Made by a program: the position numbers and the translations under genes. From Acidobacteriota bacterium (GTDB lineage Bacteria > Acidobacteriota > Terriglobia > Acidiferrales > UBA7541), in contig JAKAOH010000002.1 of the NCBI GenBank assembly GCA_021812285.1, positions 1 to 64,000 on the forward strand: a stretch of 64,000 nucleotides of DNA, written 5' to 3'. Numbering within the stretch: position 1 is the stretch's first letter; each line of letters opens with the position of its first letter. The notes beneath the pieces were generated by a model. That model saw nothing but the letters and a program-made list of their open reading frames with translations. It was not told the origin of the DNA and did not search any database. Positions 40,029 to 62,296 of this stretch are shown here, piece by piece.

Positions 40029-41156
40029 TCAGTGATTGGACCGAGGAGTGGGCCAGCCGGGGAGGACGAAAACCACGCCGCGGGCGTAGTTCATCTTGCC
40101 GGTTGCGTTCAAATTCAATTCATCGAGAGGAATTGCGCCGCGCTGGCCGGTGACGCTGATGTAATGGAGCATCCAGTCGCGGCCGAGCCAATAGCGCGTG
40201 GCGAGCACCGTGGCGCCGGACATGGCGACGAGGGCGACGGGTGGGCCGGCGGGCGTGGCGGCGGGAAAAGGAGGTGGTTGCAGCGGCGCGGCTTCCACGC
40301 GAAAAGACGAAGGATTCGTCAAGAGGCCGGGAAGGCCGCCGGCGGTCAATCGCTTCCAGCGATCGAACGGAGATTCGGGCGGAAAAAGACCGGCGTTCCA
40401 CTTCATCCACTCCGGCGTGAATTGGACGAGCAGGCCGGGAACGAATTCGGGAACGAAGCTGGGCTCGTTGACGAATGGCGGAGGGGCGTACAGGCCCCAG
40501 GGATAAAAAGCCGGGTTGATCGTTTCGTTGTTGGGATCGAAGCAGATCGAGCCGGTATTGAACAGTACGCTGTCAGGCGAGCAGTAGAGATGCGGAATGA
40601 CGATGGGCTGCGAGGCGAGCGGGGCCGATTCAATAGATGAGGCGCCAAGCGAGAGCGGCGGAATTGGCGTGGCAAGCGGACTCACCAGCAGCGGTGAAGT
40701 TCCAAGAGGCGCGACGTGCGGCGGTCGCATGAGCAAGCGCGGCGATTCCGGCGGCGGACGAAACAGATCCGGATGAGATGGAGCAACAGGTGCGGATAAG
40801 CCAAATGGCGGAGGGCCGGCTGACGTGAGATTACCCGTTGGCGCCGGGGAGATGATGATGGGCTGAACGGCGCGAATGGCCGGCGCGACGGGGCGAATCG
40901 TCAAAACGCCCGGCGAAACCGGCGGATGCAAAACCGGCGCGCGCAGAACCGGCGGCGGAGTGACCCCAGGAATGCGAACGGGAGTGACGGGAACGGGCGG
41001 CGGGGGCGCGACAGGGCGAATGACGGTGCCGCGCGGAGCGCCTTGCACAGCGGTTTGCGCGAGGAGCGGCGCGGCGCAGAAAGGCGCGCAAGAAAGCACG
41101 GCCATCGCGGCCATGGCGGAGCGGAAGGAAATTCGGAGACGAGAGCCGCGTGCCAT
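40029..41156 (-). CDS. Secreted proline-rich protein with C-terminal YW module
   Basis: 375 residues with a signal peptide (MAAMAVLSCAPFCAAPLLAQ). Residues 35-190 are dominated by Pro, Val and Ala (PVAPPPPVPVTPVRIPGV), probably extended and cell-wall or envelope spanning. A middle section has few cysteines (YCSPDSVLFNTGSICFDP). The last 75 residues (TRYWLGRDWMLHYISVTGQRGAIPLDELNLNATGKMNYARG) match the C-terminus of the neighbouring gene in pattern: YW-L-x(5)-LH-(F/Y)-x(4)-GQ-x-x-x-IP-x-x-x-LN. The two genes are tandem, 29 bp apart. Function unknown; surface or envelope location inferred. Confidence 0.75.
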   Translation of the reverse strand: MARGSRLRISFRSAMAAMAVLSCAPFCAAPLLAQTAVQGAPRGTVIRPVAPPPPVPVTPVRIPGVTPPPVLRAPVLHPPVSPGVLTIRPVAPAIRAVQPIIISPAPTGNLTSAGPPPFGLSAPVAPSHPDLFRPPPESPRLLMRPPHVAPLGTSPLLVSPLATPIPPLSLGASSIESAPLASQPIVIPHLYCSPDSVLFNTGSICFDPNNETINPAFYPWGLYAPPPFVNEPSFVPEFVPGLLVQFTPEWMKWNAGLFPPESPFDRWKRLTAGGLPGLLTNPSSFRVEAAPLQPPPFPAATPAGPPVALVAMSGATVLATRYWLGRDWMLHYISVTGQRGAIPLDELNLNATGKMNYARGVVFVLPGWPTPRSNH

Positions 41157-41185: not shown

Positions 41186-42520
41186 TCAGCGCTCGTGAGG
41201 TTGTGGCTTGGGCGCGGGAGACGAGAGCAGTTCGATTCCTTTGCCCGGATTCGCTTTTATCGTCGCCTTCATATTGAGCTGGGACGCCGGGATGGTTTCG
41301 CTTTGCCCCTGGGCGTTGACGAAATGCAATTGGTCTTGCGAATCGAGCCAATAGCCGGTTGCTTGCATTTTTTTGCCGCTGGAAAAGACGAGCGTCAAGG
41401 GCTCGCGCGCGGAATTGGGCGAGAGATCAGCGTCGTGGAATGCGGGCTGCGGGCCTCCGTTCGGCGAGACGACGGCTGAAAACCCTTCGGCGGAGGAAAG
41501 CGGAGCGGAGCCGGCGACGTAGAGGTTCGCATTTCCGGACGAAGATGCCGCGCGCGATGCGCTCGCTCCCGTATACGGAGAAAACAGAAGCGGACTCGAC
41601 AGGAACATACCGTTCAGCCCGAAAGCGAACGGACCGAAGCCGGTTGGTCCGCAGAGGGTATCGTTCCAGTTGAGATCGAGCGGCGAGAACGGGTAGCTGG
41701 AGAGGAAAATATCGGGCGAATTGAAATAGCAGGGCGAATAGGAAGACGTGAAATCCGAAGGACCGTAGCCGAAAAAGGAGAACGGTCCGCCAACGGAATA
41801 CGGATAGAGCGAAAAATCGAGAGCGTACCCGTAATTGGCCAGGCAGGCGGGATCGGGGAATTGCCAGAAGAGATTAAACGGATCGCACCACATGTCGTAA
41901 GACATGAGGAAGGGAGACCAGAGAAAGCCGGATCCCCAGAAGCCGGAATATCCGTAAGGATAGTAGCCGTATCCGTAGCCGTAATTCGTGTTGTAGTAAT
42001 AGTTCGAGTTGTTATACCGGCTTTCGATGACGCGGGCCGCCATCACGCGTTGATAGTAGGTGTTGGCCGTCTGGTGTGTGTAGACGGGTCTGCGTGCTCC
42101 CTCGGAACCGGAAGGTAAGAAGATCGTGGGCACGCTGTTTCCGTTGGAAGTTTCAATGCCGCCGGAGTTCGGGTGGCCGCCGGTGTTGCGGATGGGCGGA
42201 GCGCCGAAACGGTGCCAACCGCCATCCGTATTTGCTTTGAACGGATGGGATGGCGCGGGCCGCATGCCGGGTTCGGATCGCGGCATGGAACGCGGCATTG
42301 GCTGTCCCATGGGCATGGACGGCGGTGGCGCCATGCGCGGGGCCGGCATCGGCATCGCGCTGGGCATCTGCATCGGCGCCGGTGCTGCCGGGGCCGATGG
42401 CCGGCCGCCAGGTCTACCTTGAGCCCAGGCGGGAGCGGCGAATGCGGCGGCGAGAAGCGCGGCCGCGGCAACGCCCGTCCATGCGCGGAAAAGAATCGCT
42501 GGAGCTGACCTCTTGCTCAT
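41186..42520 (-). CDS. Secreted low-complexity Tyr/Pro/Met-rich protein, paralogous C-terminus
   Basis: The 993-residue track ORF runs far upstream on the complement of the AAA+ gene; the real start is MSKRSAPAILFRAW with AGGGAGGGG upstream, giving 444 residues. Signal peptide ends PAWAQ. Regions: Pro/Met-rich (PMQMPSAMPMPAPRMAPPPS), Tyr/Gly/Asn-rich (NYYYNTNYGYGYGYYPYGYS), an aromatic-rich segment, and the C-terminal module GYWLDSQDQLHFVNAQGQ ... IPASQLNMKAT shared with the downstream neighbour. Such compositions occur in envelope or matrix proteins. The two genes probably form one operon transcribed away from the AAA+ gene. Function unknown. Confidence 0.75.
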   Translation of the reverse strand: MSKRSAPAILFRAWTGVAAAALLAAAFAAPAWAQGRPGGRPSAPAAPAPMQMPSAMPMPAPRMAPPPSMPMGQPMPRSMPRSEPGMRPAPSHPFKANTDGGWHRFGAPPIRNTGGHPNSGGIETSNGNSVPTIFLPSGSEGARRPVYTHQTANTYYQRVMAARVIESRYNNSNYYYNTNYGYGYGYYPYGYSGFWGSGFLWSPFLMSYDMWCDPFNLFWQFPDPACLANYGYALDFSLYPYSVGGPFSFFGYGPSDFTSSYSPCYFNSPDIFLSSYPFSPLDLNWNDTLCGPTGFGPFAFGLNGMFLSSPLLFSPYTGASASRAASSSGNANLYVAGSAPLSSAEGFSAVVSPNGGPQPAFHDADLSPNSAREPLTLVFSSGKKMQATGYWLDSQDQLHFVNAQGQSETIPASQLNMKATIKANPGKGIELLSSPAPKPQPHER

Positions 42521-42832
42521 GGCCCCTCCCTTTGGCTGCCAAATCCGAACGTTCAACTGTTTGGATGCAGGCAGCAATGAAGCCGTTTCTTCCCCCGGAG
42601 GGCCCGGTAATGGGTTGAGCGCCGGGCTGCGATCTGGTGTTGGCAACCGAGCCTTCTGTTGACTATCATCCTCCAATAAGAACCTTGGCGCAATCCAAAA
42701 GGAACGCGCGCCCGCCAGTGGGAACGACGTGAGAGCGGGCACGGCGGCTCGATCCGGACGGTACAATATTGCGGGATGCGTGTTTGGCGCGACGAGCCGG
42801 ACGCAGCCGAGCCAAGGCAAAGGGGAAGGAAC
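42521..42832. other. Divergent intergenic region between secreted-protein operon and AAA+ gene
   Basis: 312 bp that must hold promoters for both directions. On the plus strand TACAAT at about 42763 is a fair -10, but I see no convincing -35 at the right distance; TTGACT at about 42659 has no clear -10. No sigma-54 match with good -24 and -12 boxes was found. No small ORF is convincing. Confidence 0.4.
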
Positions 42833-44149
42833 ATGGCGCAGATGACACCGACGCTGGTGGAAGCGCAGGCACTGCCGGCTCCGCACACCGTGACGGATAC
42901 GGGAATTCGGCGGAGCCTGCTCGAAGACCTGGCATTGAAGACCTTGTTCGTTTCCGGCGAGTTGACGCTGCGGGAACTCGGCGAGCACATGCAACTGAGC
43001 CTGCACGTTGTGGATGAGCTGTTCCAGTCGCTCAGGCGCGAGCAGCTGTGCGAGGTGAAAGGGATGATCGCCGGAATCCACCGGGTGACGGCGACGCAGG
43101 GAGGCAAGCGGCGCGCCATCGAACTGCTCGAACTCAATCAATACGTCGGGCCGGCGCCGGTTTCCCTGGAGTCGTATCTGAAGAATGTGCGCTCGCAGAC
43201 GGTGCAGGGGGCCGACATCCACGACGCTGATATTCGGCGCGTGTTCGATCACCTGGTGCTGGGCGATGAAGTGCTCGAACGGGTGGGCACGGCAATCGTT
43301 TCCGGGACTTCGATTTTCGTCTACGGGCCGACCGGCGGCGGAAAAACGTCCATCGCCGAAACGCTGCCGAACATCTATCCGGATTCGGTTTGGATCCCGT
43401 ACGCGGTGGAAGTGGACAGCCAGTTCATCGTGGTTTACGACGCGACGACGCACCGGCCGGTGGAGCAGCCGTCGTGGGGCGAGGCGGACACGCGTTGGGT
43501 GCGTTGCCGCAGGCCGCGCGTTTTCGTCGGCGGCGAATTGACGCCGGAGATGCTGGATTTGCAGATGAACCCGATCAGCAAATTCTATTCGGCGCCTTTG
43601 CAGATGAAGGCGAACAACGGCGTGCTGATCATCGACGACTTCGGGCGGCAGCGCATCCGGCCCGAAGACCTGCTGAACCGCTGGATCGTTCCGCTGGACC
43701 GGCGCGTGGACTTCCTGACGCTGCGCGGCGGAAAGAAATTCGAGGTTCCCTTCGATCTGTTCGTGGTGTTCGCGACGAACCTGAACCCGATGGAACTGGC
43801 CGACGAGGCGTTCATGCGCCGCATCCAGAACAAGATCCGGCTGGGCTATCCGCCGCCGCCGCAATTCAAGCAGATTTTCCGGCGGTGTTGCGACGGCCTC
43901 TCGCTCAACTACACCGACGACATGGTGAGTTACTTCATCCAAGTGCTCGAAAACCGCTACCACCAGCCGCTGCGGCCCTGCTATCCGAAGGACATCGTCA
44001 ACCAGATCGTCTGGACGGCGAAATACGAGGGCCATTCGGCATCGCTCGACCGGGAAACGATCGATCGGGCGTGCCGGAATTATTTCGTCAATCCCGAGGA
44101 TATGGAAAAGGAAAAGGAGTCGTCGGCGAAGGGCATCCGCTCGTTCTGA
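42833..44149 (+). CDS. AAA+ ATPase with N-terminal winged-helix-like region
   Basis: 438 residues from MAQMTPTLVEAQ with AGGGGAAGGA before the ATG. Residues 20-110 look helical and winged-helix-like (LEDLALKTLFVSGELTLRELGEHMQLS, LRREQLCEVKGMI). The AAA+ core has Walker A GPTGGGKTS (about residue 177), Walker B VLIIDDFG, sensor FATNLNP and an arginine-finger candidate FMRRIQNKI. The family resembles MoxR-like or cargo-remodelling ATPases often annotated only as ATPase. It precedes the PEGA/TonB-like pair and the Tad locus. A role in assembling or regulating that envelope machinery is conceivable but unproven. Confidence 0.8.
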   Translation: MAQMTPTLVEAQALPAPHTVTDTGIRRSLLEDLALKTLFVSGELTLRELGEHMQLSLHVVDELFQSLRREQLCEVKGMIAGIHRVTATQGGKRRAIELLELNQYVGPAPVSLESYLKNVRSQTVQGADIHDADIRRVFDHLVLGDEVLERVGTAIVSGTSIFVYGPTGGGKTSIAETLPNIYPDSVWIPYAVEVDSQFIVVYDATTHRPVEQPSWGEADTRWVRCRRPRVFVGGELTPEMLDLQMNPISKFYSAPLQMKANNGVLIIDDFGRQRIRPEDLLNRWIVPLDRRVDFLTLRGGKKFEVPFDLFVVFATNLNPMELADEAFMRRIQNKIRLGYPPPPQFKQIFRRCCDGLSLNYTDDMVSYFIQVLENRYHQPLRPCYPKDIVNQIVWTAKYEGHSASLDRETIDRACRNYFVNPEDMEKEKESSAKGIRSF

Positions 44150-44220: not shown

Positions 44221-44772
44221 TTAGCGGTGCGAATTCCCGAAGACGCGAATCGAAACCGCGGTCGGGTAGGTTTCCTCGAGACGATAGGCGTAGCGCCGGC
44301 TTTTTCCCTTGACGACGTTGATTTGGTGGTCGGCGTGTTCCTGGCGCGGCCCGAGCAGGCTGACGTGGTGCTTGCCGGCAGGCAGCGTCACCTTGACCGG
44401 AGCGCGGCCTACGAATTTTCCGTCAATCCAGACGCCGGAGGGAGCGGGAGTGGCGTCGATGGTTATGAGGGCACCGTCCTTCCCAGCTTCCTTGGCGAAC
44501 CATTCGCGATTCACCTGCTCGGGCGGCGGGCCAGAGGACTTGGCGAGCGTGAGCGAGGAATTGGGCTGGCCATTTCCGCCCGGCGTAAAAACTTGGGGCC
44601 GGGAGGCGGCTACACTTCCGCTGACGTTGGCCGCACCGCCGTATTCGGCCGCGGCTTGCGCGTGGGCCCGAGGCGCAGACGCGAGCCAGAGGCCAAGGAA
44701 CACGGCGAGAAGTCCCCAGACGGGACGAGTGACTGCCGCGTGCGAACGATGAGAAAATCTTTGCAGCATCAT
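44221..44772 (-). CDS. Secreted PEGA-domain protein
   Basis: 183 residues from MMLQRFSHRSHAAV, with GGAGGAGGAAC just upstream; the 564-residue track ORF is spurious upstream. Signal peptide: WGLLAVFLGLWLASAPRAHAQ. A Ser/Gly-rich linker is followed by a PEGA domain at residues 100-165 (APSGVWIDGKFVGRAPVKVTL, then PAGKHHVSLL). PEGA domains are surface-layer-like beta modules linked to envelope proteins. A strong sigma-54 type promoter lies 72 bp upstream of the ATG on the minus strand. Divergent from the TonB-like gene at 45088. Confidence 0.85.
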   Translation of the reverse strand: MMLQRFSHRSHAAVTRPVWGLLAVFLGLWLASAPRAHAQAAAEYGGAANVSGSVAASRPQVFTPGGNGQPNSSLTLAKSSGPPPEQVNREWFAKEAGKDGALITIDATPAPSGVWIDGKFVGRAPVKVTLPAGKHHVSLLGPRQEHADHQINVVKGKSRRYAYRLEETYPTAVSIRVFGNSHR

Positions 44773-44843: not shown

Positions 44844-44859
44844 GGCAATCAGTTTGCCA
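44844..44859 (-). promoter_or_regulatory. Sigma-54 (-24/-12) promoter of the PEGA gene
   Basis: On the minus strand the sequence reads TGGCAAACTGATTGCC: TGGCA at -24 and TTGC at -12, with exactly 12 nt between the GG and GC doublets as sigma-54 requires. The predicted start of transcription is near 44833, giving a leader of about 60 nt before the ATG at 44772. A sigma-54 activator gene is 2.2 kb away at 47048. Confidence 0.72.
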
Positions 44860-44893
44860 GAATATAAAGATGCCAGGAAAAGTTTGTTGGAGA

Positions 44894-44909
44894 CGGGCCA
44901 AAAGTTGCA
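44894..44909 (+). promoter_or_regulatory. Possible weak sigma-54 promoter toward the TonB-like gene
   Basis: CGGGCCAAAAGTTGCA has a perfect -12 half (TTGCA) and correct 12-nt GG-to-GC spacing, but the -24 half (CGGGCC) is poor. It points to the TonB-like gene, whose start is about 180 bp downstream. It lies 35 bp from the strong opposite-facing site. Chance occurrence is quite possible. Confidence 0.3.
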
Positions 44910-45087
44910 AAGGGAAAGGTAGCGGATAGTAACTTGAGAGGCACGGGGTCGCCGAAAGTGTTTCCAAATTCGGCCGCGCAGTGGTGTCAATAGTGAACGA
45001 AGGGAGACGGGGCGGAATTTTTGCGGCTGCTCCGGCGGACCAGGCAGCGGCTGCGCCGGGTGAGTCATCGAACGGGGAGAGCTGAAC

Positions 45088-46758
45088 GTGAAACGCGCAG
45101 GCCTCATCGGCGACGATTTCCATTTTGAGATTCGCCACCCGTCCCGGCTGGGCAGTTGGGGCGCCGAGATTCGCATGCTGCTGGGCATGCGCACGCCGCG
45201 GATTTCGGGCTGGGTGCGTTTCTTCGATCCGCATCCGATGCGGATGTGGCGTCCGCGGCGCATGCGGACGATCTTTTCCTCCACCTTTTTTCACTTCGCC
45301 GTCTTTTTCCTGCTGATCACGGTTCCGTGGGCCGAGTTGCTGCCGCCGAACCCGCATGTGGCGCTGCCGATCATCACCGCCGATTATCAGCTGGTTTATC
45401 CGCTGCCGCCGCACAAGGTGGAAATCCATTCGCAGCCGAAGGCGGCGGCGAAGGGCGAGCACAAGGCGGTGAAGCCGGCTCCCAGCGAGGGAGCGAAACG
45501 AGCGTCGGGCGCGGGCGTAAAAACGCCGCAGCCGATGCCGAAATTCACGCTGGTCCTCAAACCGCCGCACGCGGACAATCACAACCAGACGATCGTTCAG
45601 GCCGGCACCCCGCCGAATGTGATCATCCATCACTACGTTCCCCTGCCAAACGTTCTGCTGGCGGGACTGGTGGCGAAGAATGATCCGAGAATGCCGACAT
45701 CGGGCGCCGCGCCAAAAGCCGTGGTCCATCCAACGGCCGGCGCGCCGGCGATGAACGTGCCGGCGCCGGTGATCCCCGATATGGCTCTGGCGGTCCAGGT
45801 CCCATCGGAAAAACAGCCGCTGCTGGCCAGCCCCGAGGTTGCGCTGCCGATTCCCGCACCCGAGCAGTCGCTCGGCTCGATTTACGCCTCGCGCGCCCAG
45901 AACAACGCGTCGCAAAGCGCGCGCGGGTTGCTGGTTTTAGGCGCGAATCCCGCCCCGCCCTCGACGCTGATGAGCGTGCCCATGGGCAATCGCTACGGCC
46001 AATTTTCCGTTTCGCTGCTCGGCGGAAAAACCGGCCTGCCGAGCGGACCGGGCGGGCCGATGATGGGCGGAGGGGGATTCGCGAAGATGGGCGCGGCAAA
46101 AGGTTCCGGAAACGGTTCGGGCAACGCCGCCGCGGGCGTCAGCGGTGATATTGGCAGCGCGGAAAATGGCGCCGCGGCCATGGCCGCCTTCGGGCCGGAA
46201 AGCAATGGTTCGGGAAATGAAGAGGGAATTCTGCCGCCGTGGATGGCGGCGAACCTGGTCTATCCCGTCAGCAAGGCGATGAAGATTCCGGCCATAAACC
46301 TGATCGTCACCGCAGGACCTGTCGGCGGCGGCGGGTTGGGAATGTTCGGCGTGCTGAGCTGCTCGACCATCTATACGATCTACCTCACGATGCCGGGCAA
46401 ACCCTGGGTGCTGCAATATTGCGAGCAAAACTCCCGGCCGTCCGCCGCTCCGGCGCCCGATGGCGGGGTGGTCCGGCTGGGATCGGGCATCACGCCTCCG
46501 TTTCCGCTCGCGCAATACGATTTTCATCGGCCACCGATCGATCCTTACAAGCGCGACCGCATGATCGTTTTGAAAGGCGTCATCACGCGCGAAGGCAAAA
46601 TAACGGGATTGAAGCTGTATCAGGGAATCGGCTCGATCGCGGACGCGGCCGCCATCACCGCATTCAGCCGCTGGAAATTCCACCCGGCGCAGAATGCGAA
46701 GGGAAAGCCCGTGCCGGTGGAAATGCTCGTGGGGATTCCGGCGCTGCGCACGCAATAA
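45088..46758 (+). CDS. TonB-family protein with C-terminal TonB domain
   Basis: 556 residues from a GTG preceded by GGGGAGAG. A cytoplasmic N-terminal part of about 60 basic and aromatic residues precedes one membrane helix (FFHFAVFFLLITVPW). A long Pro/Ala/Lys- and Gly-rich periplasmic region follows (MMGGGGFAKMGAAKGSGNGS). The last 60 residues match a TonB C-terminal domain (VLKGVITREGKITGLKLYQG, then AITAFSRWKFHPA and VPVEMLVGIP). The N-terminal extension before the membrane helix is longer than in classical TonB. It could energise an outer-membrane receptor or act in envelope assembly; no ExbB/ExbD is nearby. Confidence 0.85.
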   Translation: MKRAGLIGDDFHFEIRHPSRLGSWGAEIRMLLGMRTPRISGWVRFFDPHPMRMWRPRRMRTIFSSTFFHFAVFFLLITVPWAELLPPNPHVALPIITADYQLVYPLPPHKVEIHSQPKAAAKGEHKAVKPAPSEGAKRASGAGVKTPQPMPKFTLVLKPPHADNHNQTIVQAGTPPNVIIHHYVPLPNVLLAGLVAKNDPRMPTSGAAPKAVVHPTAGAPAMNVPAPVIPDMALAVQVPSEKQPLLASPEVALPIPAPEQSLGSIYASRAQNNASQSARGLLVLGANPAPPSTLMSVPMGNRYGQFSVSLLGGKTGLPSGPGGPMMGGGGFAKMGAAKGSGNGSGNAAAGVSGDIGSAENGAAAMAAFGPESNGSGNEEGILPPWMAANLVYPVSKAMKIPAINLIVTAGPVGGGGLGMFGVLSCSTIYTIYLTMPGKPWVLQYCEQNSRPSAAPAPDGGVVRLGSGITPPFPLAQYDFHRPPIDPYKRDRMIVLKGVITREGKITGLKLYQGIGSIADAAAITAFSRWKFHPAQNAKGKPVPVEMLVGIPALRTQ

Positions 46759-47047: not shown

Positions 47048-48475
47048 GTGGCTGAAAACGTCCGCGTCTTCTTTTTCGGATTCGATTCCAACCTGGCCAA
47101 GACCATAGGCCGCGAACTCGGCCCCGAGTTTGAATTCCGCCAATCGAACAAGATCGAACTGCCGCAGGACCTGCGCGAAGTATCCGCCTGGTGGGATGTG
47201 GTGATGGTGGATCTGACCGAAATCGGCTGCGACGGCGACGTGGAAGCGGCGTTTGCGCTGATGGACCAGGTGAACCGGCTCACCCAGGCCCCGCCGATCA
47301 TTGCGATTTTGGGTGGAGAAGAACGGCGAACGGTGGCCAAGGTGATCGAACACGGCGCGTTCGACACGATCTCGAGCCCTCCGGACCTGCACGAATTGCG
47401 GGTGGTGCTGCGGCGAGCGCAGAAATTCCTGCACGCCGAGCGCGAGTTGGCTCGGCTGCGGAGCGAGCAGGCGGCGCCGCGGCAGGTGTGCGACCTGATC
47501 GGCGCATCGCAGCCGATGCAGGAAGTTTTCTCGATGGCCGAAAAAGTGGCCGGCTACGACATCAACGTGCTGATCACCGGCGAGACGGGCACGGGCAAGG
47601 AATTGCTGGCGCGGGCGATCCATCGGATGAGTCCGCGGCAGAATTCGGCATTCGTGGCGTTCAGCTGCGTGAATTTGCCGGAAACGCTGATCGAGGATGA
47701 ACTCTTCGGCCACGAGCGCGGCGCCTTTACCGGCGCGGTGGCCGCGCGGCGCGGCCGCGTGGAAGCGGCCGACGGCGGCACGCTGTTTCTCGACGAAATC
47801 GGAGACCTTGGCATCGGCTTGCAGCCGAAATTGCTTCGCGTGCTGCAGGAACGGAATTTCGAGCGGTTGGGCAGCAATCATTCGCAATCGGTGAATATTC
47901 GCGTTCTGAGCGCGACGAATCAGGACCTGGAATCGCTCGTGAGGCAGAACCGATTCCGCGAAGATCTTTACTACCGGTTGAACGTGGTGGAAATCCATCT
48001 GCCCCCGCTGCGGGAACGCAAGGACGATATCCAGTACCTGGCGCAGTATTTTCTCGATCGTTGCGCCAAGCAATTCAACAAGGAAGTTCACCGATTTTCG
48101 CCCTGGGCGTTGCACGCGCTGGAGGAATACGACTGGCCAGGCAACGTGCGCGAACTTTCCAACACCATCGAGCGCGCGGTTGCCCTGGCGCAGACCGGCA
48201 CGATCGACGTCTGGCATCTGACGCGTTCGGCGCGCGATGTTTCGAAGGCGGCGGTGCTGGCGCGGACCTACGAAGGCGAAGTGCGCGAATTCAAGCGGCG
48301 GCTGATTATCCGCACGCTGCGCGAATGCGGTTGGCGCAAGGCGGAAAGCGCGCGCATGCTTGGTGTCGCCCGCACCTACCTGCACCGGCTGATCAACCAG
48401 CTCGACATTCATGAAGAAGAAGTCGCGGAAGCAGTCGCGCCGGAAGCTCCGACTCCGCCGCAGCGGCTGATTTGA
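47048..48475 (+). CDS. Sigma-54-dependent transcriptional activator (NtrC/PilR class)
   Basis: 475 residues from a GTG. Residues 1-130 form a receiver-like domain; DVVMVDLTE keeps an aspartate at the phosphorylation position, but the lysine expected near the end of the domain is not evident (FDTISSPPDLHEL), so it may be a pseudo-receiver. The AAA+ domain has GETGTGKE (Walker A), the sigma-54 contact loop GAFTGA, FLDEIGD (Walker B) and REDLYYRLNV. The C-terminus carries a Fis-type helix-turn-helix (RLIIRTLRECGWRKAESARML). It opens sigma-54 promoters and is the natural candidate to control the -24/-12 sites before flp, the 53.4-kb membrane gene and the PEGA gene. No sensor kinase is adjacent. 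Confidence 0.94.
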   Translation: MAENVRVFFFGFDSNLAKTIGRELGPEFEFRQSNKIELPQDLREVSAWWDVVMVDLTEIGCDGDVEAAFALMDQVNRLTQAPPIIAILGGEERRTVAKVIEHGAFDTISSPPDLHELRVVLRRAQKFLHAERELARLRSEQAAPRQVCDLIGASQPMQEVFSMAEKVAGYDINVLITGETGTGKELLARAIHRMSPRQNSAFVAFSCVNLPETLIEDELFGHERGAFTGAVAARRGRVEAADGGTLFLDEIGDLGIGLQPKLLRVLQERNFERLGSNHSQSVNIRVLSATNQDLESLVRQNRFREDLYYRLNVVEIHLPPLRERKDDIQYLAQYFLDRCAKQFNKEVHRFSPWALHALEEYDWPGNVRELSNTIERAVALAQTGTIDVWHLTRSARDVSKAAVLARTYEGEVREFKRRLIIRTLRECGWRKAESARMLGVARTYLHRLINQLDIHEEEVAEAVAPEAPTPPQRLI

Positions 48476-50405: not shown

Positions 50406-50419
50406 GACGTCTAGTATCG

Positions 50420-50450
50420 TTGACTCCATTGTATAACATGGCAATACCTA
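50420..50450 (+). promoter_or_regulatory. Candidate promoter of the tadE-tadE-tadG genes
   Basis: TTGACT (50420-50425) is followed by the near-palindrome CCATTGTATAACATGG and then AATACCTA about 17-19 nt downstream. The -10 match is weak. The arrangement resembles the one at 46938-46966 in front of the activator gene. The tadE ATG is at 50484. Confidence 0.35.
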
Positions 50451-50483
50451 ATGGGTGACAGAACGGCCCGGAGGCGAAACGAT

Positions 50484-50957
50484 ATGATTTTCTCCAATCC
50501 TCGCTCGGAACGTGGCGCCGACATCCTGGAAGCGGCCCTGGTCCTGCCGCTATTGCTGGCGCTGATGTTTGGCGTCTATACGTTCGGCCGCGGCTGGGAC
50601 CTGTACCAGACGATGACGCGGGCGGCTCGCGAAGGCGTGCGGCAAGCGGTGACGACGAACTGCGCCATGTGCGGGGACACAACGCAGTCGTCCTCGTACA
50701 TTCAGTCGAACGTGGTTTTTCCCGCTTTGCAGGCGACTGGTTTCGACACGAGCAACAGTCTTTTTCAATCCACCTACCAGCAGGGCGAAACGTACATTGA
50801 TTCGGCCAATACGGTTTGCGGGGTGTACATCACCTACAGTTATCCCTTCCAGGTGATCCTCCCGTTCCTGCCGATTTCCGTGAGCACGATCGATTTGACG
50901 ACCAAAGTGCAGATGCGCATGGAGAACCAGCCAGTACCTCCTGCGACCTGTGGCTGA
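50484..50957 (+). CDS. tadE: TadE-like pseudopilin
   Basis: 157 residues from MIFSNPRSERGADILEA; GGAGG lies 9 bp before the ATG. The N-terminus has the TadE signature: a charged leader, RGADILEAALVLPLLLALMFGVYTF with a Glu five residues after the glycine, then a helix DLYQTMTRAAREGVRQAV. The C-terminal part is beta-rich with two cysteine pairs (CAMC, VCG/TCG) that may form disulfides outside the membrane. TadE/TadF pseudopilins are processed by TadV and needed for Flp pilus assembly. First of three genes with 9-bp gaps. Confidence 0.9.
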   Translation: MIFSNPRSERGADILEAALVLPLLLALMFGVYTFGRGWDLYQTMTRAAREGVRQAVTTNCAMCGDTTQSSSYIQSNVVFPALQATGFDTSNSLFQSTYQQGETYIDSANTVCGVYITYSYPFQVILPFLPISVSTIDLTTKVQMRMENQPVPPATCG

Positions 50958-50966
50958 GAGGCGAAC

Positions 50967-51593
50967 ATGAGAAGACCGGGAACAGCACGTACGCGCGCCA
51001 GCGAACGAGGCGTGGAGCTTTTTGAGCTGGCTATTCTGTTGCCGTTTCTTTTGGTGCTCGTGGCCGGAGCGGCGGATTTTGCGCAAGCCTGGAGTGCGCG
51101 GCAGATTCTGGCCAACGCCGCTCGAGAGGGCGCTCGTATCGGCTCGAATGGCGTCTACAATGATTTGGGCACCACCGATCCCTCTTCCATCCAGACGATT
51201 TGCCAGGATGTGGCGAATTATCTGATCCAGGCGAATCTGAGCCCTTCGTTCATGGGCGTGAATGGCACGACGGCGAGCGCAGTGACGAGCGCGTGCTCAT
51301 CGCCCGGGACGGTCCTCGATCCGACAACGGGTGCGACGGTCTCCTATACGTATTATTCGACGGGGTCCTATGGGCTGAAAATCACGCCGCTGTACCAAAT
51401 TACGACCACCGGACCGGAATGCCCGCCACTCGCGTCAAGCTGCATGATTTTCGCGACGCGCGTTTCCCTGACCTATCCCTACAATTGGTCATTCGGCTTC
51501 AACAACGCCATCAATCTGATCACCAGTTCCAGCTACTCGCCAACAATCACCATCAAGGTCTATGCGACCATGAATAACCTGAATACTTATTGA
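50967..51593 (+). CDS. TadE/TadF-like pseudopilin, second copy
   Basis: 208 residues from MRRPGTARTRASERGVELFE. It has the same N-terminal design, ERGVELFELAILLPFLLVLVAGAADF followed by ILANAAREGARIG. The periplasmic part is longer than in the first TadE and rich in Thr, Ser and Tyr, with cysteines that could pair (TICQDV, SACSSP, PECPP, SSCMI). It starts 9 bp after the first tadE and ends 9 bp before the tadG-like gene, so the three form a minor-pilin operon. Confidence 0.88.
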   Translation: MRRPGTARTRASERGVELFELAILLPFLLVLVAGAADFAQAWSARQILANAAREGARIGSNGVYNDLGTTDPSSIQTICQDVANYLIQANLSPSFMGVNGTTASAVTSACSSPGTVLDPTTGATVSYTYYSTGSYGLKITPLYQITTTGPECPPLASSCMIFATRVSLTYPYNWSFGFNNAINLITSSSYSPTITIKVYATMNNLNTY

Positions 51594-51602
51594 GGTGAGG
51601 GA

Positions 51603-53078
51603 ATGAATCGGCAGACGCAGGCGCGAAATGCTCGATCGGAACGCGGTTTGAGCCTGATCCTGGTGGCGTTTGGGCTCATCTTTCTGCTGGCGTTGGCCGG
51701 ACTCGCGGTGGATCTGGCGACGCTCTACGTGGCGCGAAATGAGGAGCAGCGCTCGGCCGACGCCGCGGCTCTGGCCGGAGCGTCGCAATTCGTCACCAGT
51801 TCGGTGACGAGCGGATTGATCACGGTGCAAGCCGCCGGACCGATGGCCGAGGCGCAAGCGGTGACGGTGGGAAATCAGAACCTGATCCTGGGGCGGAGCC
51901 CCAATCTGAGCACGAATAATTTCAACAGCACCTGCCCGGCGCCGAGCAATGTGTCCGGCGGCTGCCTGGATTTTTCCTACGCCAACGATCCGCAAATCAC
52001 CGTGGCGGTGGTGCAGAACGTTCCGACCTTTTTTATGAAGATTTTCGGGATTCAATCGGTGCCGGTATCGGTCACGGCGACGGCCGAGGCGTATACTCCC
52101 TCGGGTTCGGGTCCGGATACGGCGGTGAATTGCGTGAAGCCGTGGTTGCTGCCGAACTGCGACGAAAATTACATTGACACGACCGCAAGCTCCTCGACTC
52201 CCATCAGCGGGATCGATAATCCCAATTGTCCGGTGACCGACAGCAAGGGCAACCCCGTTTTGAACAGCGCCGGCGGCCAGGAATATTACGAATATTTCGT
52301 CGTTCCCAACCCGTCCGGATACGCCAACACGATTCTCCATCCCGGCTTGACAACCAGCGGGGCGATTGGCGAACTGCTGACGGTGAAACCCGGCACGCCC
52401 GGAGACGCCGAAACGCCCAGCAAATTCTGGCCGGTTTTCTTGCCTACGAACGGCAGTTTCATCTGCCCTGCTTGCGCCGCGAACGACCAAGCCACCAGCG
52501 GCACGAATTCAGCCGCGCTCTATCGTGAAAATATCGAATGCTGCAGCCAGCAAATCATCACCTGCGGAAACAACACGCTTGTAACTCCCATCAACGGCGA
52601 CAAAGTTGGCGCTACGGGCGCGGGCGTGGAATGCTTGATCAACGAAACGAACGCGGGCGTCGGTCAGGACTGCATCAGCATCGATCCGAGCAACTCCACG
52701 GTATGCCCGTATACAGGCGTAACGTACAGCCAGACAACCCCCTTCACGATATGGGCGGGCACCGACAATACCTATAACGTCTCTCCCGGCACGGTGATCC
52801 AGAACAGCAATTCCACCGTCACGATCCCGATCTACGACGGACAGGCGCTTTGCCCCGGCGGTTCGAGCGCGGCCACTTGCGCGCCGCAGTATGTGAACGT
52901 CGTCGGCTGGTTGCAGCTCTTCATTCAAAGAGTCAGCAAGAGCAACCAGGAGACGGTGTACGCGTTCGTCATGAACATCAGCGGCTGCGGCAATAGCGGC
53001 AGCAACGAATCCGGTCCGGGCACGGTCATTCCGGTCAACACCGGCAGCCCCATTCCCGTGCGGCTGATCCATAACTGA
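51603..53078 (+). CDS. tadG: TadG-like protein with TadE/G N-terminal domain
   Basis: 491 residues from MNRQTQARNARSERGLSLIL. The N-terminus is the putative Flp pilus-assembly TadE/G domain (FGLIFLLALAGLAVDLATLYV, then RNEEQRSADAAALAGASQFV). The remaining 420 residues are extracytoplasmic, Ser/Thr/Asn-rich and contain about 16 cysteines (CPAPSNVSGGC, CPACAANDQ, ECCSQQIITCGN), suggesting several disulfides. I do not see a clear MIDAS of a von Willebrand A domain, which many TadG have, so it may be a shorter variant with an adhesive function. A GTGAGG ribosome-binding site precedes the ATG. Confidence 0.88.
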   Translation: MNRQTQARNARSERGLSLILVAFGLIFLLALAGLAVDLATLYVARNEEQRSADAAALAGASQFVTSSVTSGLITVQAAGPMAEAQAVTVGNQNLILGRSPNLSTNNFNSTCPAPSNVSGGCLDFSYANDPQITVAVVQNVPTFFMKIFGIQSVPVSVTATAEAYTPSGSGPDTAVNCVKPWLLPNCDENYIDTTASSSTPISGIDNPNCPVTDSKGNPVLNSAGGQEYYEYFVVPNPSGYANTILHPGLTTSGAIGELLTVKPGTPGDAETPSKFWPVFLPTNGSFICPACAANDQATSGTNSAALYRENIECCSQQIITCGNNTLVTPINGDKVGATGAGVECLINETNAGVGQDCISIDPSNSTVCPYTGVTYSQTTPFTIWAGTDNTYNVSPGTVIQNSNSTVTIPIYDGQALCPGGSSAATCAPQYVNVVGWLQLFIQRVSKSNQETVYAFVMNISGCGNSGSNESGPGTVIPVNTGSPIPVRLIHN

Positions 53079-53090
53079 AATCGCCAGGCG

Positions 53091-53145
53091 GTAGCGGAGC
53101 AGTCTCGGCGAGACGGGTGCGCTCGCGGCAGTTTGCGGGCACCCG
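53091..53145. repeat. Paired hairpins downstream of tadG (REP-like or terminator)
   Basis: GTCTCG-G-CGAGAC (53102-53114) is followed by CGGGTGC (53114-53120) and its complement GCACCCG (53139-53145). The first hairpin is preceded by GTAGCGGAGCA, again a GTAGC-type flank. No U-tract follows. It could stop or stabilise the tadE-tadG transcript or be another REP family. The rest of 53079-53345 has no gene. Confidence 0.45.
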
Positions 53146-53345
53146 ACATTGGTGGTCTTGCCGGCGGCGCATAGGGGCCTGGCATAGGCGCAAATCCCAG
53201 ATTCCATCCGGTGGTTGGGAAGAGGAGCGGGCGGAGGGTGTTGCCGGTTTTTTGGAAATGGGCCTGCCCAGGAGGCTTGGGCCGGATGGGCAAAACCCTC
53301 GCGACTGCTCGCAAAGGAAACAGAATGTATGACTTGGTTGCGTTA

Positions 53346-53361
53346 TGGTACCCCGATTGCT
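53346..53361 (+). promoter_or_regulatory. Sigma-54 (-24/-12) promoter of the membrane-protein gene
   Basis: TGGTACCCCGATTGCT matches the sigma-54 consensus at TGG-Y-AC and TTGCT, with exactly 12 nt from GG to GC. Transcription would start near 53371, 16 nt before the GTG at 53387 or about 60 nt before the ATG at 53432. Confidence 0.7.
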
Positions 53362-53386
53362 GGCGATATAGAGGATAAAGACGGTC

Positions 53387-54976
53387 GTGTCTTCGCCCGG
53401 ACGGGGAGACGCGCGGAAAGCGCAATCATCTATGGTGAGCTCAAGCAACGTCATCAACGAGGAAGTGACCGTGGAAGAGTTTTGGCTGGTGGGTCTGGTA
53501 AAAAAGGCGATTTCGTTTCCCGTATTTCTCGGTGTTCTGCTAGCGGTTGCGGCAGGCGTGGTGGCGATGTCGCATCTGGCCGATCCGGATACGTGGTGGC
53601 ATACGAAGGTCGGGCAATGGATTCTGGCGACCGGCCGTTTCCCCACGCACGACATCTATTCCTACACCGTGCATGGGCATCCGTGGATTGCCTACGAATG
53701 GCTTGGGGAAGTATTGATGGGCCTGGCGGGCCGGGCGGGCGTGGGCGGGTTGATGTGGCTGCTGTGCGGTATTTCGGCCGCGTTGCTCACGCTGATGTAC
53801 ATCTACGCCTACGTCTATACGCGGAGCGTAAAGGCGGGGGTAACTGCTGCCGCCCTGCTGTTGCCGCTGGAAGGTGTTTTCTTCACGCTGCGCCCCCAGT
53901 TGATCGGGTATTGCTTCCTGGTGGTGTTGCTGATCCTGATGGAGTTGTATCGACAGGGAAACGAGAAGGCGCTGTGGTTCATTCCGCCGTTGTTCCTGGT
54001 TTGGGTCAATACGCATGGAACCTTTTTCATCGGGCTCGGCATTTTCGGCGTGTATTGGCTGTGCGGGCAGTTTGAATTCGAATGGGGAACCGTGGAAGCG
54101 AAGAAGTGGACGCCGCGGCAGAGCCGGCATCTGCTTCTGACCATTCTGGCTTCGACAATTCTGCTTCCGCTGACGCCGTACGGGACTCAGCTTGCCGCTT
54201 ATCCCTTCGAGATGGCGTTCATGCAGCCGCTCAATATTCAGAGCATTCAGGAGTGGCAACCGCTGAGTTTCGGGCCGCCGTGGGGAAAAGCGTTTCTCAT
54301 TCTGGTGGTCGCGCTCCTGTTTTTGCAGTTGAGGTGGAAGCCGCGGTATCGCTTCTTCGATCTGGTCTTGTTGACTGTCACGATTTTTGCCGCTGCGCAG
54401 CATCAGCGTTTCATCGCCGTCCTCGTATTCGCCTTTTTGCCGATCGTGGCCGCTTTTGTCGGCCGCTGGATGACTCCCTACGCTCCGAGCAAGGACAAAT
54501 ATCTGTTGAACGTGGCGCTGATCGCCTTGATCGTCTTTGGCGTCTTCCACTTTTTCCCCAACGATCGCCAGATCGATAAGCGTTTGGGAAAGACGTATCC
54601 AATGAAGGCGATCGCCTACATTCAGGAGCATGGCATTCCCGAGCCGTTGTACAACGACTACGGTTGGGGCGGGTACCTGATCTGGAAGTTCGGCAATCTG
54701 CACGGCAGCTCGCTGCCGGTGTTTATTGACGGCCGCGCGGACATCTACGATTACGCCGGAGTTTTGCGGGACGATCTGGATATCGCGGACCTGAAACCGG
54801 ACACGCCTTTCTTGTTCGATAAATATCAACTCCGGACGGTCTTCACCAATTCCGATTCCGCCCTGGCGACGTATTTGAGGGCTTCGCCCGAGTGGTCGAT
54901 CGCGTATCAGGACAAACTGTCCACGATTTTCCTGTATCACGGGAAGTATCCAAAGGCGGCTTCCTATGGGTTCTGA
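53387..54976 (+). CDS. Polytopic membrane protein, unknown function, in the Tad locus
   Basis: 529 residues from a GTG, or 514 from the ATG at 53432 (MVSSSNVINEEV), which I find about equally likely. About ten membrane helices, with periplasmic loop motifs SHLADPDTWWHTKVGQWIL and HPWIAYEWLGEVLM near the N-terminus. Acidic residues in the first loop and the general architecture recall GT-C type glycosyltransferases or O-antigen polymerase-like proteins. The C-terminal 120 residues are soluble (IPEPLYNDYGWGGYLIWKFG, DGRADIYDYAG). It has its own sigma-54 type promoter and lies between the minor pilin genes and flp, so pilin glycosylation or envelope function is a reasonable guess only. Confidence 0.75.
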   Translation: MSSPGRGDARKAQSSMVSSSNVINEEVTVEEFWLVGLVKKAISFPVFLGVLLAVAAGVVAMSHLADPDTWWHTKVGQWILATGRFPTHDIYSYTVHGHPWIAYEWLGEVLMGLAGRAGVGGLMWLLCGISAALLTLMYIYAYVYTRSVKAGVTAAALLLPLEGVFFTLRPQLIGYCFLVVLLILMELYRQGNEKALWFIPPLFLVWVNTHGTFFIGLGIFGVYWLCGQFEFEWGTVEAKKWTPRQSRHLLLTILASTILLPLTPYGTQLAAYPFEMAFMQPLNIQSIQEWQPLSFGPPWGKAFLILVVALLFLQLRWKPRYRFFDLVLLTVTIFAAAQHQRFIAVLVFAFLPIVAAFVGRWMTPYAPSKDKYLLNVALIALIVFGVFHFFPNDRQIDKRLGKTYPMKAIAYIQEHGIPEPLYNDYGWGGYLIWKFGNLHGSSLPVFIDGRADIYDYAGVLRDDLDIADLKPDTPFLFDKYQLRTVFTNSDSALATYLRASPEWSIAYQDKLSTIFLYHGKYPKAASYGF

Positions 54977-55091
54977 TGCGTTTACAAGTTAGTTCATTAC
55001 AAAGGGTTTGTGTCAGCAAAACCTGACGTTTTTCGGGTTCCGGGCCGTGGGAAAGAAGCTGGAAACGGGGGGTAATAAGCGTAAGTGTTTA

Positions 55092-55105
55092 TAGTTCTAG
55101 AACTA
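55092..55105. promoter_or_regulatory. 14-bp perfect palindrome upstream of flp, possible activator site
   Basis: TAGTTCTAGAACTA is a perfect palindrome about 190 bp upstream of the flp -24/-12 promoter. That distance suits an upstream activator sequence for a sigma-54 enhancer-binding protein. I do not find the same palindrome before the other two sigma-54 sites, so the assignment is weak. The 54977-55294 stretch otherwise has no gene. Confidence 0.35.
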
Positions 55106-55294
55106 ATGGACTCTCTGATTTCACCTCGCGGGAGGGTAGGCTGCGTGCAAGGTAATCGCGGCCATGAGTTCCTCCTTGTGTATGTTGAAGATGCCGGCAA
55201 GGGCGGCCTCGGGACCTCGATGGTTGAGTCGAGGGAAGGAAGGGCATTGGCGATTGCGAAACCGAAGGCAGGGCTAAGGGAGTTCTTAGAATTT

Positions 55295-55310
55295 TGGCAG
55301 CAGAAGTGCA
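55295..55310 (+). promoter_or_regulatory. Sigma-54 (-24/-12) promoter of flp
   Basis: TGGCAGCAGAAGTGCA: TGGCA at -24, TGCA at -12, and exactly 12 nt between GG and GC. Transcription would start near 55321, leaving a leader of about 53 nt that contains a small hairpin (55327-55345) and a strong AAGGAGGG ribosome-binding site. Confidence 0.75.
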
Positions 55311-55373
55311 TCATGCAAAAGGGAACGGCGCAGCGCCGCTGTGCCGATGACCGCTCTCCAAGGAGGGAAGGAA

Positions 55374-55547
55374 ATGAAGAACCTGTTGCGTCGTTTGTGG
55401 AAGGAAGAAGAAGGCCAGGACCTGATCGAGTACGCCCTGCTGGTCGTGCTCATCTCGTTGATCGCCGTGGCCTCGCTCCGCGTGGCTGGCGATGCCGTCA
55501 GCGATGCTTTCTCGAACGCGGCTGCGAACCTCACCAGCAACACGTAA
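55374..55547 (+). CDS. flp: Flp-type major pilin
   Basis: 57 residues from MKNLLRRLWKEEEGQDLIEY, with AAGGAGGG before the ATG; the track start is 11 codons upstream. The prepilin leader ends in a glycine, and the mature part starts QDLIEYALLVVLISLIAVASL, the Flp motif with Glu-Tyr at mature positions 5-6 counting from the Q. TadV would cleave after the glycine. The C-terminus is short and Asn/Ser/Thr-rich (SNAAANLTSNT), a potential target for modification. It sits alone between a sigma-54 promoter and a strong hairpin, as expected for a gene expressed at much higher level than the assembly genes. Confidence 0.95.
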   Translation: MKNLLRRLWKEEEGQDLIEYALLVVLISLIAVASLRVAGDAVSDAFSNAAANLTSNT

Positions 55548-55571
55548 TTGACCGGCACAGCGCGCTCGGAT

Positions 55572-55599
55572 CACTGGAGGGGGAAATTCCCCTCCAGTG
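55572..55599 (+). terminator. Strong hairpin after flp
   Basis: CACTGGAGGGG and CCCCTCCAGTG pair perfectly (11 bp) around the 6-nt loop GAAATT, 24 bp after the flp stop. No U-tract follows, so it may be a partial terminator or a 3' stabiliser that raises pilin mRNA over the downstream assembly genes. Confidence 0.6.
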
Positions 55600-55964
55600 C
55601 ACGAGCCGAAATCAGGGAAGACAATTCAGGCCGCGCATATCCCCCGGCAGGACGCAAGACGGGGCGGGAGAGCGCGGCCGGTTTTGTTTTCAGTCTCGGA
55701 TCGCCGATGGGGGGGAAACCAGGGCGCGCGGTGGGTGTTTCTCGCACCGCGTAGCGTTCACGGCGCCGAATCCGGGGAACCTAGATTATCCGCGTCGTGG
55801 AGACTTCCGAGACGATTGTATTCATTGTGCGGCGCCCGCTGGCGGGACGGAAGATCCGGGGAAATCCAACCGTTGTCAGAATGTAACCTTGCTTATCAGG
55901 AAAAGGCGCGGCGGTACAGGACTGCTGGTAAGATTGCACGGTCGGGGTGGTGACCGTTGGATGC
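55600..55964. other. Intergenic region between flp and tadV
   Basis: 365 bp without a convincing gene; the plus-strand frame at 55597-55953 has no start signal or motif. It must carry a promoter if the assembly genes are expressed independently of flp. I found no -24/-12 site with both halves good (CCTTGCTT near 55886 lacks a GG at -24). Confidence 0.5.
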
Positions 55965-56516
55965 ATGGTAATGATGGCAATCCTTTCTAATCTGCATTTG
56001 CCGTGGATTTTGGCCGTAATCCTGACACTTGTCGCCGGGCTGGGCGACCTGCGCACGCGACGCATCCCGAACCGGTTGACGGTTCCGGCGCTCCTGGCGG
56101 GCTTGGGCGTCAACGGGCTTCTGGGCGGGTGGCACGGATTGCTTTTCAGTTTGGAAGGCGCGGGATTGGGTTTGGGACTTCTGCTCCCGCTGGTTCTCTT
56201 GCGCGGGCTTGGCGCGGGGGACTGGAAGCTGATGGGAGCGCTGGGGGCCTTCGTGGGTCCAGCGATGACATTCACGATTTTGTTTGTTTCGATGTGCCTG
56301 GCCGCGGCCTGGGGAGTGGTGGAGATGATCCGGCAGCGGCGGGTGAAGACAACGCTGTGGAATTTGTGGGAACTGGTGCACGGATTTGTGTTATTCGGGT
56401 TGCAGCCGAATCCCAACATTTCGATTGATACTCAGCCATTGATCAAGCTGCCGTTCGGCGTGGTGACGGCCGTGGCCACAGCCGCGGCCCTCTCGGCGGC
56501 TTGGCTAAGGTTGTAG
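55965..56516 (+). CDS. tadV: Prepilin peptidase of the Tad system (TadV/CpaA, A24)
   Basis: About 183 residues from MVMMAILSNLHLPW; the exact start among clustered methionines, or the track GTG, is uncertain. Both A24 aspartates are visible: GLGDLRTRRIPN and the GxGD motif GAGDWKLMGALG. About five hydrophobic segments. It lacks the cytoplasmic cysteine methylase domain of PilD, as is normal for TadV/CpaA. It would cleave Flp and the TadE-type pseudopilins after glycine. First of the assembly genes; cpaB follows after 19 bp. Confidence 0.92.
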   Translation: MVMMAILSNLHLPWILAVILTLVAGLGDLRTRRIPNRLTVPALLAGLGVNGLLGGWHGLLFSLEGAGLGLGLLLPLVLLRGLGAGDWKLMGALGAFVGPAMTFTILFVSMCLAAAWGVVEMIRQRRVKTTLWNLWELVHGFVLFGLQPNPNISIDTQPLIKLPFGVVTAVATAAALSAAWLRL

Positions 56517-56535
56517 CGGAAAGGGGAACGGGGAG

Positions 56536-57390
56536 ATGAACCGCAGGCGGTTACTGATCGGTTTGGCCACGGCAGTGGTGTTGGCCGTGCTTGCGAGCAC
56601 GTTCGTATACCGGCAGGTTCGCCAGACCCCGGTGGTCCAACAACAGAAGGCGCCATCGACGCAGATCGTTGTTGCGTCTGCGCCCTTGCCGCTGGGCACG
56701 CGTCTGGACGCGCACGATTTGCGCTTGGTTCCCTGGCCCGGCAACGAGCCGGTGCCCGGGATGTTCACTCGGTTGCAGGACGCCGAGGGACGGGCGCTGA
56801 TCACGAACGTCGTGCAAAACGAGCCGATTCTCGAGTCGGAATTGGCTCCCCGAGAAGCTGGAGCGGGCTTGCCGGCGACGATTCCCGAGGGCATGCGCGC
56901 GGAGTCGGTTGCGGTGAACCAGGTGGTGGGCGTATCCGGATTCGTGCAGGCGGGAAATATGGTGGATGTGATCGCCGTTGGCAACCCAGGCAACGGCGAG
57001 GGTGGCGGTCAGACGTTGGCCAAGACGGTGCTGGAAAACGTGAAGGTGCTGGCGGCGGGGGAGCAGGTGACGCAGGACGCCCAGGGCAAGCCGCATGTTG
57101 TCCCGGTGGTGACGCTGCTGGTTTCTCCGGAAGATGCCGACAAGCTGGCGCTGGCCGCGGCGCAGGCGCGCATACAGTTGGCATTGCGGAACACGATTGA
57201 CACCAAGGTTGTCCATCCGCCGAGCATCTTTCAGGCGCAGTTGCTCAGTCCGACGGGCGGACCGGCGCCGACGGGTCCGCGGCGGATCATTCGGCGGCCC
57301 CGGCGCGTGGTGCCACAAGCACCGCCGCCCTACGTGGTGGAAGTGATCAGCGGAAACAAACGGGAAACGAAGACGTTCCCGAATCACTAA
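56536..57390 (+). CDS. cpaB: Flp pilus assembly protein CpaB (RcpC)
   Basis: 284 residues from MNRRRLLIGLATAVVLAVLAS, one N-terminal membrane helix. A SAF domain (residues 45-115: IVVASAPLPLGTRLDAHDLR) precedes the RcpC/CpaB domain (ESVAVNQVVGVSGFVQAGNMVDVIA, VTLLVSPEDADKLALAAAQ). The C-terminal 45 residues are basic and proline-rich. CpaB is periplasmic and thought to gate or stabilise the secretin. The gene follows tadV by 19 bp and precedes cpaC by 14 bp. AAAGGGGAACGGGGAG precedes the ATG. Confidence 0.93.
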   Translation: MNRRRLLIGLATAVVLAVLASTFVYRQVRQTPVVQQQKAPSTQIVVASAPLPLGTRLDAHDLRLVPWPGNEPVPGMFTRLQDAEGRALITNVVQNEPILESELAPREAGAGLPATIPEGMRAESVAVNQVVGVSGFVQAGNMVDVIAVGNPGNGEGGGQTLAKTVLENVKVLAAGEQVTQDAQGKPHVVPVVTLLVSPEDADKLALAAAQARIQLALRNTIDTKVVHPPSIFQAQLLSPTGGPAPTGPRRIIRRPRRVVPQAPPPYVVEVISGNKRETKTFPNH

Positions 57391-57404
57391 GGCCGGTGAG
57401 GGAC

Positions 57405-58772: not shown

Positions 58773-58824
58773 GGGTTTTGCGACGTGAACGGGATCGGGG
58801 GACGGTGAGAAGACAGAACGATCC

Positions 58825-60012: not shown

Positions 60013-60015
60013 ACC

Positions 60016-61305: not shown

Positions 61306-61314
61306 AGGACACCC

Positions 61315-62283: not shown

Positions 62284-62296
62284 GGCGGAGGTCGGA

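Follow-up and report, generated by a model that had tools for sequence, protein, structure and literature searches.

The minus-strand sequence TGGCAAACTGATTGCC (44859 to 44844), located upstream of a gene for a secreted PEGA-domain protein, is predicted with high confidence to be the sigma-54 promoter of that gene. Based on sequence comparison across related genomes, we consider it likely that this promoter belongs to a cluster-specific sigma-54 regulon that comprises a Tad/Flp pilus and the PEGA protein, joined in relatives by a TonB-like protein, and that is driven by an activator encoded in the same cluster. It is quite likely that the PEGA gene shares its regulon with the pilin gene flp, and the PEGA gene and the pilus would very probably be switched on together. 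The least certain step is the assignment of the regulator to the activator encoded at 47048–48475, which we regard as probable. The analysis covers the window, i.e., the whole 64-kb stretch of DNA under study, together with orthologous loci from genomes that appear to be metagenome bins.

A predicted sigma-54 promoter upstream of the PEGA gene

The predicted promoter spans 44844–44860 on the minus strand and reads CTGGCAAACTGATTGCC, with GG at −24 and GC at −12. Its −12 GC lies 73 bp from the PEGA start codon (ATG at 44772), which is preceded by the ribosome-binding site GGAGGAGG, and the transcript start is predicted at about 44833, some 12 bp downstream of this GC (44845–44846). The gene (44221–44772, minus strand) encodes a protein of 183 aa with a PEGA domain (PF08308, E = 1.2e-9) and a signal-peptide-like N terminus. 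Scores come from an approximate matrix for sigma-54 sites; its weights were set from the general consensus YTGGCACGrNNNTTGCW, and its maximum is 20.3. On this scale the PEGA site reaches 12.4, the second-best value in the window behind the flp site (13.2). The initial annotation had read the sequence exactly, and its high rank and its position ahead of a secreted PEGA protein are both borne out. The host genome carries a single rpoN (E = 9.5e-53), and no sigma-70 match was found in the PEGA upstream interval.

Conservation of the site and comparison to background

A GG-N10-GC site is present upstream of the PEGA gene in 9/9 orthologues examined, which cover the genus, the family and a sister family, in addition to the site in the window itself. 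Scores within the genus are 12.4 (own genome), 12.4 (G002), 10.7 (G003) and 9.2 (G004); outside the genus they are 9.6 (G093), 17.6 (G007, TTGGCACGACTCCTGCT), 11.0 (G109), 11.0 (G034), 13.3 (G012) and 16.8 (G049, a member of another family, TTGGCACGGCTCCTGCT). In an alignment of the four congeners, 8/8 bases of the −24/−12 core are invariant, compared to 2/7 in the spacer and 97/318 in the remaining and flanking positions (Fisher P = 1e-4). Orthologous loci share descent, and the loci within the genus are not independent of each other.

The bare pattern is not enriched: TGGCAN6TTGC has 33 exact matches genome-wide (3.73 Mb) versus 36 for the reversed control, and 18 one-mismatch matches occur in the window versus 16.7 expected. 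Raw density was therefore not used as evidence. As a separate observation, four TGGCAN6TTGC matches lie on one strand within 1.9 kb at G000:C187:13166-15046, a clustering seen nowhere else in the genome. For positional statistics we used a 400-kb sample of the own genome, with crude gene calls, as background. Of 181 genes preceded by a gap of 80 bp or more in this sample, 4 carry a sense-oriented score of at least 11.5 at 30–130 bp, whereas 3 of about 7 gene starts in the cluster do so (binomial P ~4e-4). Intergenic matches of at least 11.5 occur at 1.43 per kb in the cluster versus 0.20 per kb in 70.7 kb of background (Poisson P ~0.009). The comparison of match densities inside and outside the locus that the initial annotation had proposed is thus moderately favourable for upstream and intergenic DNA, but not for the bare pattern. 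Conservation among orthologues is far stronger evidence than these positional or density statistics.

Two other explanations of the site itself have to be weighed against these data. A chance match without function would be in line with a pattern that occurs every ~0.1 Mb and with the genome-wide count equal to the reversed control, but it is extremely improbable given the conservation in nine orthologues, the positional enrichment and the constant spacing to a shared palindrome described below. The site is also a dyad, TGGCAA-N5-TTGCCA, a feature overlooked in the initial annotation, so that the sigma-54 pattern can be read on both strands. Such a dyad could be the operator of a dimeric repressor that merely resembles a sigma-54 site, and the own and G002 sites are indeed perfect 6-bp dyads; however, G003 has lost the symmetry (TGGCAATCTGATTGCGG) and other genera lack the dyad, as in the G007 site given above, while the PEGA-direction sigma-54 bases are kept in every genome. 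Since the dyad is lost in G003 and outside the genus, the conserved item is the PEGA-facing promoter and not the palindromy of the site. We therefore rejected the operator, which is very improbable, and retain the reading as a sigma-54 promoter.

A shared palindrome upstream of the predicted promoters

By palindromic motif discovery on promoter-upstream DNA we found an 18-bp palindrome, TGTCnCCnnTTGGnnACA, which is probably an activator-binding site. The enhancer sites of NtrC and NifA are dyads with TGT/ACA ends. The palindrome resembles such NtrC-family sites in being an 18-bp dyad with TGT...ACA ends located 50–270 bp upstream of sigma-54 promoters, and it differs in its specific sequence. 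A search within one genome for 12-mers (up to two mismatches) shared between the regions upstream of PEGA and flp gave nothing convincing; only the multi-genome palindromic model found a shared word.

The training set of the retrained model consisted solely of seven PEGA/TonB regions, drawn from six genomes outside the genus; the log-likelihood reached 84 compared to 33–39 in shuffles. In held-out regions it scores 15.8 (G004 flp), 12.5 (G002 flp), 10.8 (G007 flp), 15.5 (G013 membrane gene) and 12.3 (PEGA/TonB region of the own genome), and in loci added later 10.5, 16.7 and 17.2 (G003 flp, activator and membrane gene, respectively), 11.8 (G026 flp), 11.5 (G030 flp) and 23.7 (G118 TonB region). 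Palindromes scoring at least 9 lie upstream of flp in 8/12 genomes, some of which are congeners and thus not fully independent, versus 0.8% of 400-bp background blocks; the control with nine within-operon genes gave 2/77 upstream regions. Counting pairs of palindrome and sigma-54 site (both at least 9) gave 26 in the 318 kb of cluster loci, part of which served for training, and 12 in 130 kb of later-added loci, compared to none in the 400 kb of own-genome background. Further such pairs lie outside the mapped genes at L094:3481 (G034) and L084:6065 (G093) and possibly mark additional regulon members. The strict palindrome GTCNCCN4GGNNAC shows no genome-wide excess, and we therefore do not claim extra members of the regulon.

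The candidate enhancer of the PEGA gene lies at 44992–45009, reads CGTCTCCCTTCGTTCACT on the minus strand and precedes the −24 element by 131 bp, a distance within the 80–300 bp expected for an activator site of a sigma-54 promoter. Although its score is weak here (7.1), it is retained by all four congeners, and its distance to the promoter agrees with that in relatives (122–139 bp across nine genomes). A second candidate at 45063–45080 (AGTCATCGAACGGGGAGA) has the best palindrome score in the window (12.3), is kept only in the own genome and G002 and overlaps the leader of the TonB-like gene. For flp, the candidate enhancer at 55011–55028 (TGTCAGCAAAACCTGACG) is located 265 bp upstream of the −24 element and scores only 5.2; at the equivalent place the congeners reach 12.5 (G002), 10.5 (G003, spaced 267 bp) and 15.8 (G004), and the spacing is 265–267 bp across the four congeners. 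The PEGA and flp palindromes are thus weaker in the own genome than in relatives.

The presence of a palindrome and a sigma-54 promoter ahead of both the PEGA gene and flp argues for one regulon. The co-regulation of envelope proteins with the pilus suggested by the initial annotation is therefore supported for the PEGA protein, since the palindrome occurs upstream of both genes across the family, including loci outside the training set.

The TonB-like gene and its promoter in relatives

Divergent from the PEGA gene, a protein with a TonB-like C-terminal domain is encoded at 45088–46758 on the plus strand (PF03544, E = 8.6e-7). In five non-congener genomes, a good TonB-facing sigma-54 promoter lies 52–62 bp beyond the palindrome on its other side, such that the PEGA and TonB promoters form a divergent pair with a shared candidate enhancer. 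G118 repeats this divergent geometry, but the divergent gene there is not PEGA. A TonB promoter of this type is missing in the genus of the window. The weaker opposite-facing match reported in the initial annotation, about 35 bp away toward the TonB-like gene, is present as a GG-N10-GC site at 44893–44909 on the plus strand (ACGGGCCAAAAGTTGCA, score 7.4; 6.1, 6.6 and 4.3 in congeners), but its role as a promoter finds no support in this genus. Because of its weak scores and its location between the palindrome and the PEGA promoter, i.e., on the wrong side of the palindrome, it is probably not the TonB promoter. We likewise rejected the TonB-sense reading of the dyad at the PEGA site, which has poor scores in congeners and is also on the wrong side of the palindrome.

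Further sites in the Tad/Flp cluster

The predicted flp promoter at 55294–55310 on the plus strand (TTGGCAGCAGAAGTGCA) has the top score in the window and reaches 13.2 in G002, 17.7 in G003, 12.4 in G004 and 14.0 in G013. It precedes the gene for a Flp-type pilin of 57 aa (55374–55547, plus strand). Ahead of a large membrane protein of no named family, encoded inside the tad cluster (53432–54976, plus strand), a predicted promoter at 53345–53361 on the plus strand (ATGGTACCCCGATTGCT) ranks fifth in the window with 11.7 and scores 11.7, 13.5 and 13.4 in G002, G004 and G013. The three sites that had been placed in the activator-encoding region are thus confirmed, and those of flp and the membrane-protein gene are conserved in congeners and G013. 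At the latter promoter the palindrome is absent in the own genome, G002 and G004. In the upstream regions of the within-operon genes CpaA, CpaB, TadE1, DUF362 and SHC, counted where the upstream region is valid, no sigma-54 score reaches 9; values from matches running off a locus end were left out.

Several palindromes occur at other places in the cluster. Enhancer-like palindromes lie ahead of tadE1 at 50408–50425 (CGTCTAGTATCGTTGACT) and, as a second candidate, at 50443–50460 (7.0 and 8.7, respectively), with relatives reaching 10.6 (G002), 16.8 (G026), 22.9 (G093) and 16.4 (G030). In several genomes this palindrome is located ~35–57 bp ahead of tadE1 (50408–50460 in the window; L131:7026, L132:15541 and L137:13357), and the tadE1 upstream regions carrying it contain no recognisable sigma-54 promoter in several genomes; the palindrome may be repressive or exert its effect from a distance. 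Another palindrome, TAGTTCTAGAACTA at 55092–55105, is perfect and precedes the flp promoter by ~190 bp. G002 and G004 share its 12-bp core without change, and the whole genome contains this core a single time. We rejected this palindrome as a common enhancer, since it has no second copy in the genome and the PEGA region lacks it; it is possibly the site of a second regulator of flp.

The locus contains the components expected for a Tad/Flp pilus: tadE (two copies), tadG, flp, cpaA, cpaB, cpaC, cpaE, cpaF, tadB and tadC are encoded at 50451–63220 on the plus strand. The genes are arranged as AAA ATPase – PEGA (opposite strand) – TonB-like – activator – SHC-like – DUF362 – tadE, tadE, tadG – membrane protein – flp – cpaA to tadC; congeners keep this order, and other genera of the family keep it in part. 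The orphan AAA ATPase (42776–44149, plus strand), convergent with the PEGA gene, serves as a marker of the cluster. It scores above no family cut-off, occurs in only 11/95 genomes of the order and is also found in records from Nitrosomonadales, Deltaproteobacteria and Myxococcota; a strong sigma-54 match precedes it in relatives such as G007 (16.9) and none does in the window. Beyond it on the minus strand, two adjoining genes (40029–41156 and ~41186–42500) encode secreted Pro/Tyr-rich proteins whose C-terminal modules resemble each other (..YWL..LH.....GQ...IP...LN..AT..) and may represent a duplicated envelope domain.

The cluster-encoded activator

The activator gene (47048–48475, plus strand) is located 2.2 kb from the PEGA promoter in the same cluster. 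Its product has the hallmarks of a bacterial enhancer-binding protein (bEBP), namely an AAA+ domain (PF00158, E = 5e-70) with the GAFTGA motif, which is kept in 13 orthologues, and a C-terminal Fis-type HTH (HTH_8, PF02954). The receiver-like N-terminus is degenerate: among the 13 orthologues the Asp is kept, the Lys position is occupied by S, N or G and the Thr/Ser is lost, and there is no Pfam receiver match. The protein thus lacks the full set of acidic pair, Asp, Thr/Ser and Lys that defines a two-component response regulator, and due to the loss of Lys and Thr/Ser its switch may differ from ordinary phosphorylation.

The promoters of PEGA and flp could be real and yet respond to an activator encoded elsewhere, with the cluster activator controlling something else. 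The genome contains about 15 clear bEBP genes, plus fragments and weaker matches, and no palindrome is evident upstream of the activator gene in the own genome or G002. For this reason, the pairing of palindrome and activator draws on gene neighbourhood and on the activator upstream regions of relatives, not on the own genome. Against control from elsewhere, most genomes with a recovered locus, across the family, keep the activator clustered with the TonB and tad genes, and the palindrome lies ahead of the activator gene in G003 (16.7), G012 (13.2), G034 (9.6) and G007 (9.0), which fits autoregulation. We consider an activator encoded elsewhere unlikely and retain the cluster activator as the probable regulator.

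Discussion

Comparison of genomes establishes a conserved promoter, palindrome and spacing, and a conserved gene cluster that includes the activator. From these elements we infer binding of the palindrome, looping and co-expression as follows. The NtrC-type cluster activator would bind TGTCnCCnnTTGGnnACA between the PEGA and TonB-like genes, loop to sigma-54 polymerase at the −24/−12 elements about 130 bp away and start transcription of the PEGA gene. The flp pilin gene, preceded by an equivalent palindrome and sigma-54 promoter, would be activated likewise. Some relatives have this combination also ahead of the membrane-protein gene and of the activator gene itself, which may come under the same control.

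Sigma-54 control of pili is well established. The unusual feature here is the PEGA protein as a partner, joined in relatives by a TonB-like protein. A limited search found no paper joining sigma-54, pili and Acidobacteria, which says little. The closest likeness is DVU2114 of Desulfovibrio vulgaris, described as a sigma-54-dependent response regulator that targets Flp-type pilin genes beside cpa/tad genes; ahead of the pilins, its binding motif is conserved in a few relatives (PMC3333781, PMC4641369). By this published description, it shares with the present cluster the combination of sigma-54 activator, Flp pilin and cpa/tad genes; it belongs to another phylum, extracts of these reports mention no PEGA or TonB-like partner, and the activator described here differs in its degenerate receiver. 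Pili and envelope proteins under sigma-54 also fit the general rule of sigma-54 as controller of the bacterial exterior (Francke 2011, PMC3162934), an account that leaves Acidobacteria, Flp and Tad unmentioned. The best NCBIfam profile of the activator is the PrsR/PEP-CTERM-box response regulator (TIGR02915), which likewise stands for sigma-54-dependent control of exported proteins; with 373 bits compared to a cut-off of 503, the activator is not a member.

A broader reading, on which we hold the balance to be even, is a previously undescribed, family-wide Acidobacteriota regulon: the activator, with its degenerate receiver, would act through the 18-bp palindrome on the Tad/Flp pilus, PEGA and TonB-like genes. 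The PEGA and TonB-like proteins would then be novel accessory components of the pilus in the envelope, and the switch of the activator would not be ordinary phosphorylation.

The analysis turns one motif match into a testable regulon with a single activator, a single palindrome and at least two promoters. It gives the PEGA and TonB-like genes, otherwise without a role, a probable pilus-linked function in the envelope, in a phylum with few genetic tools, and the palindrome can be used to search uncultivated Acidobacteriota for additional genes of the regulon.
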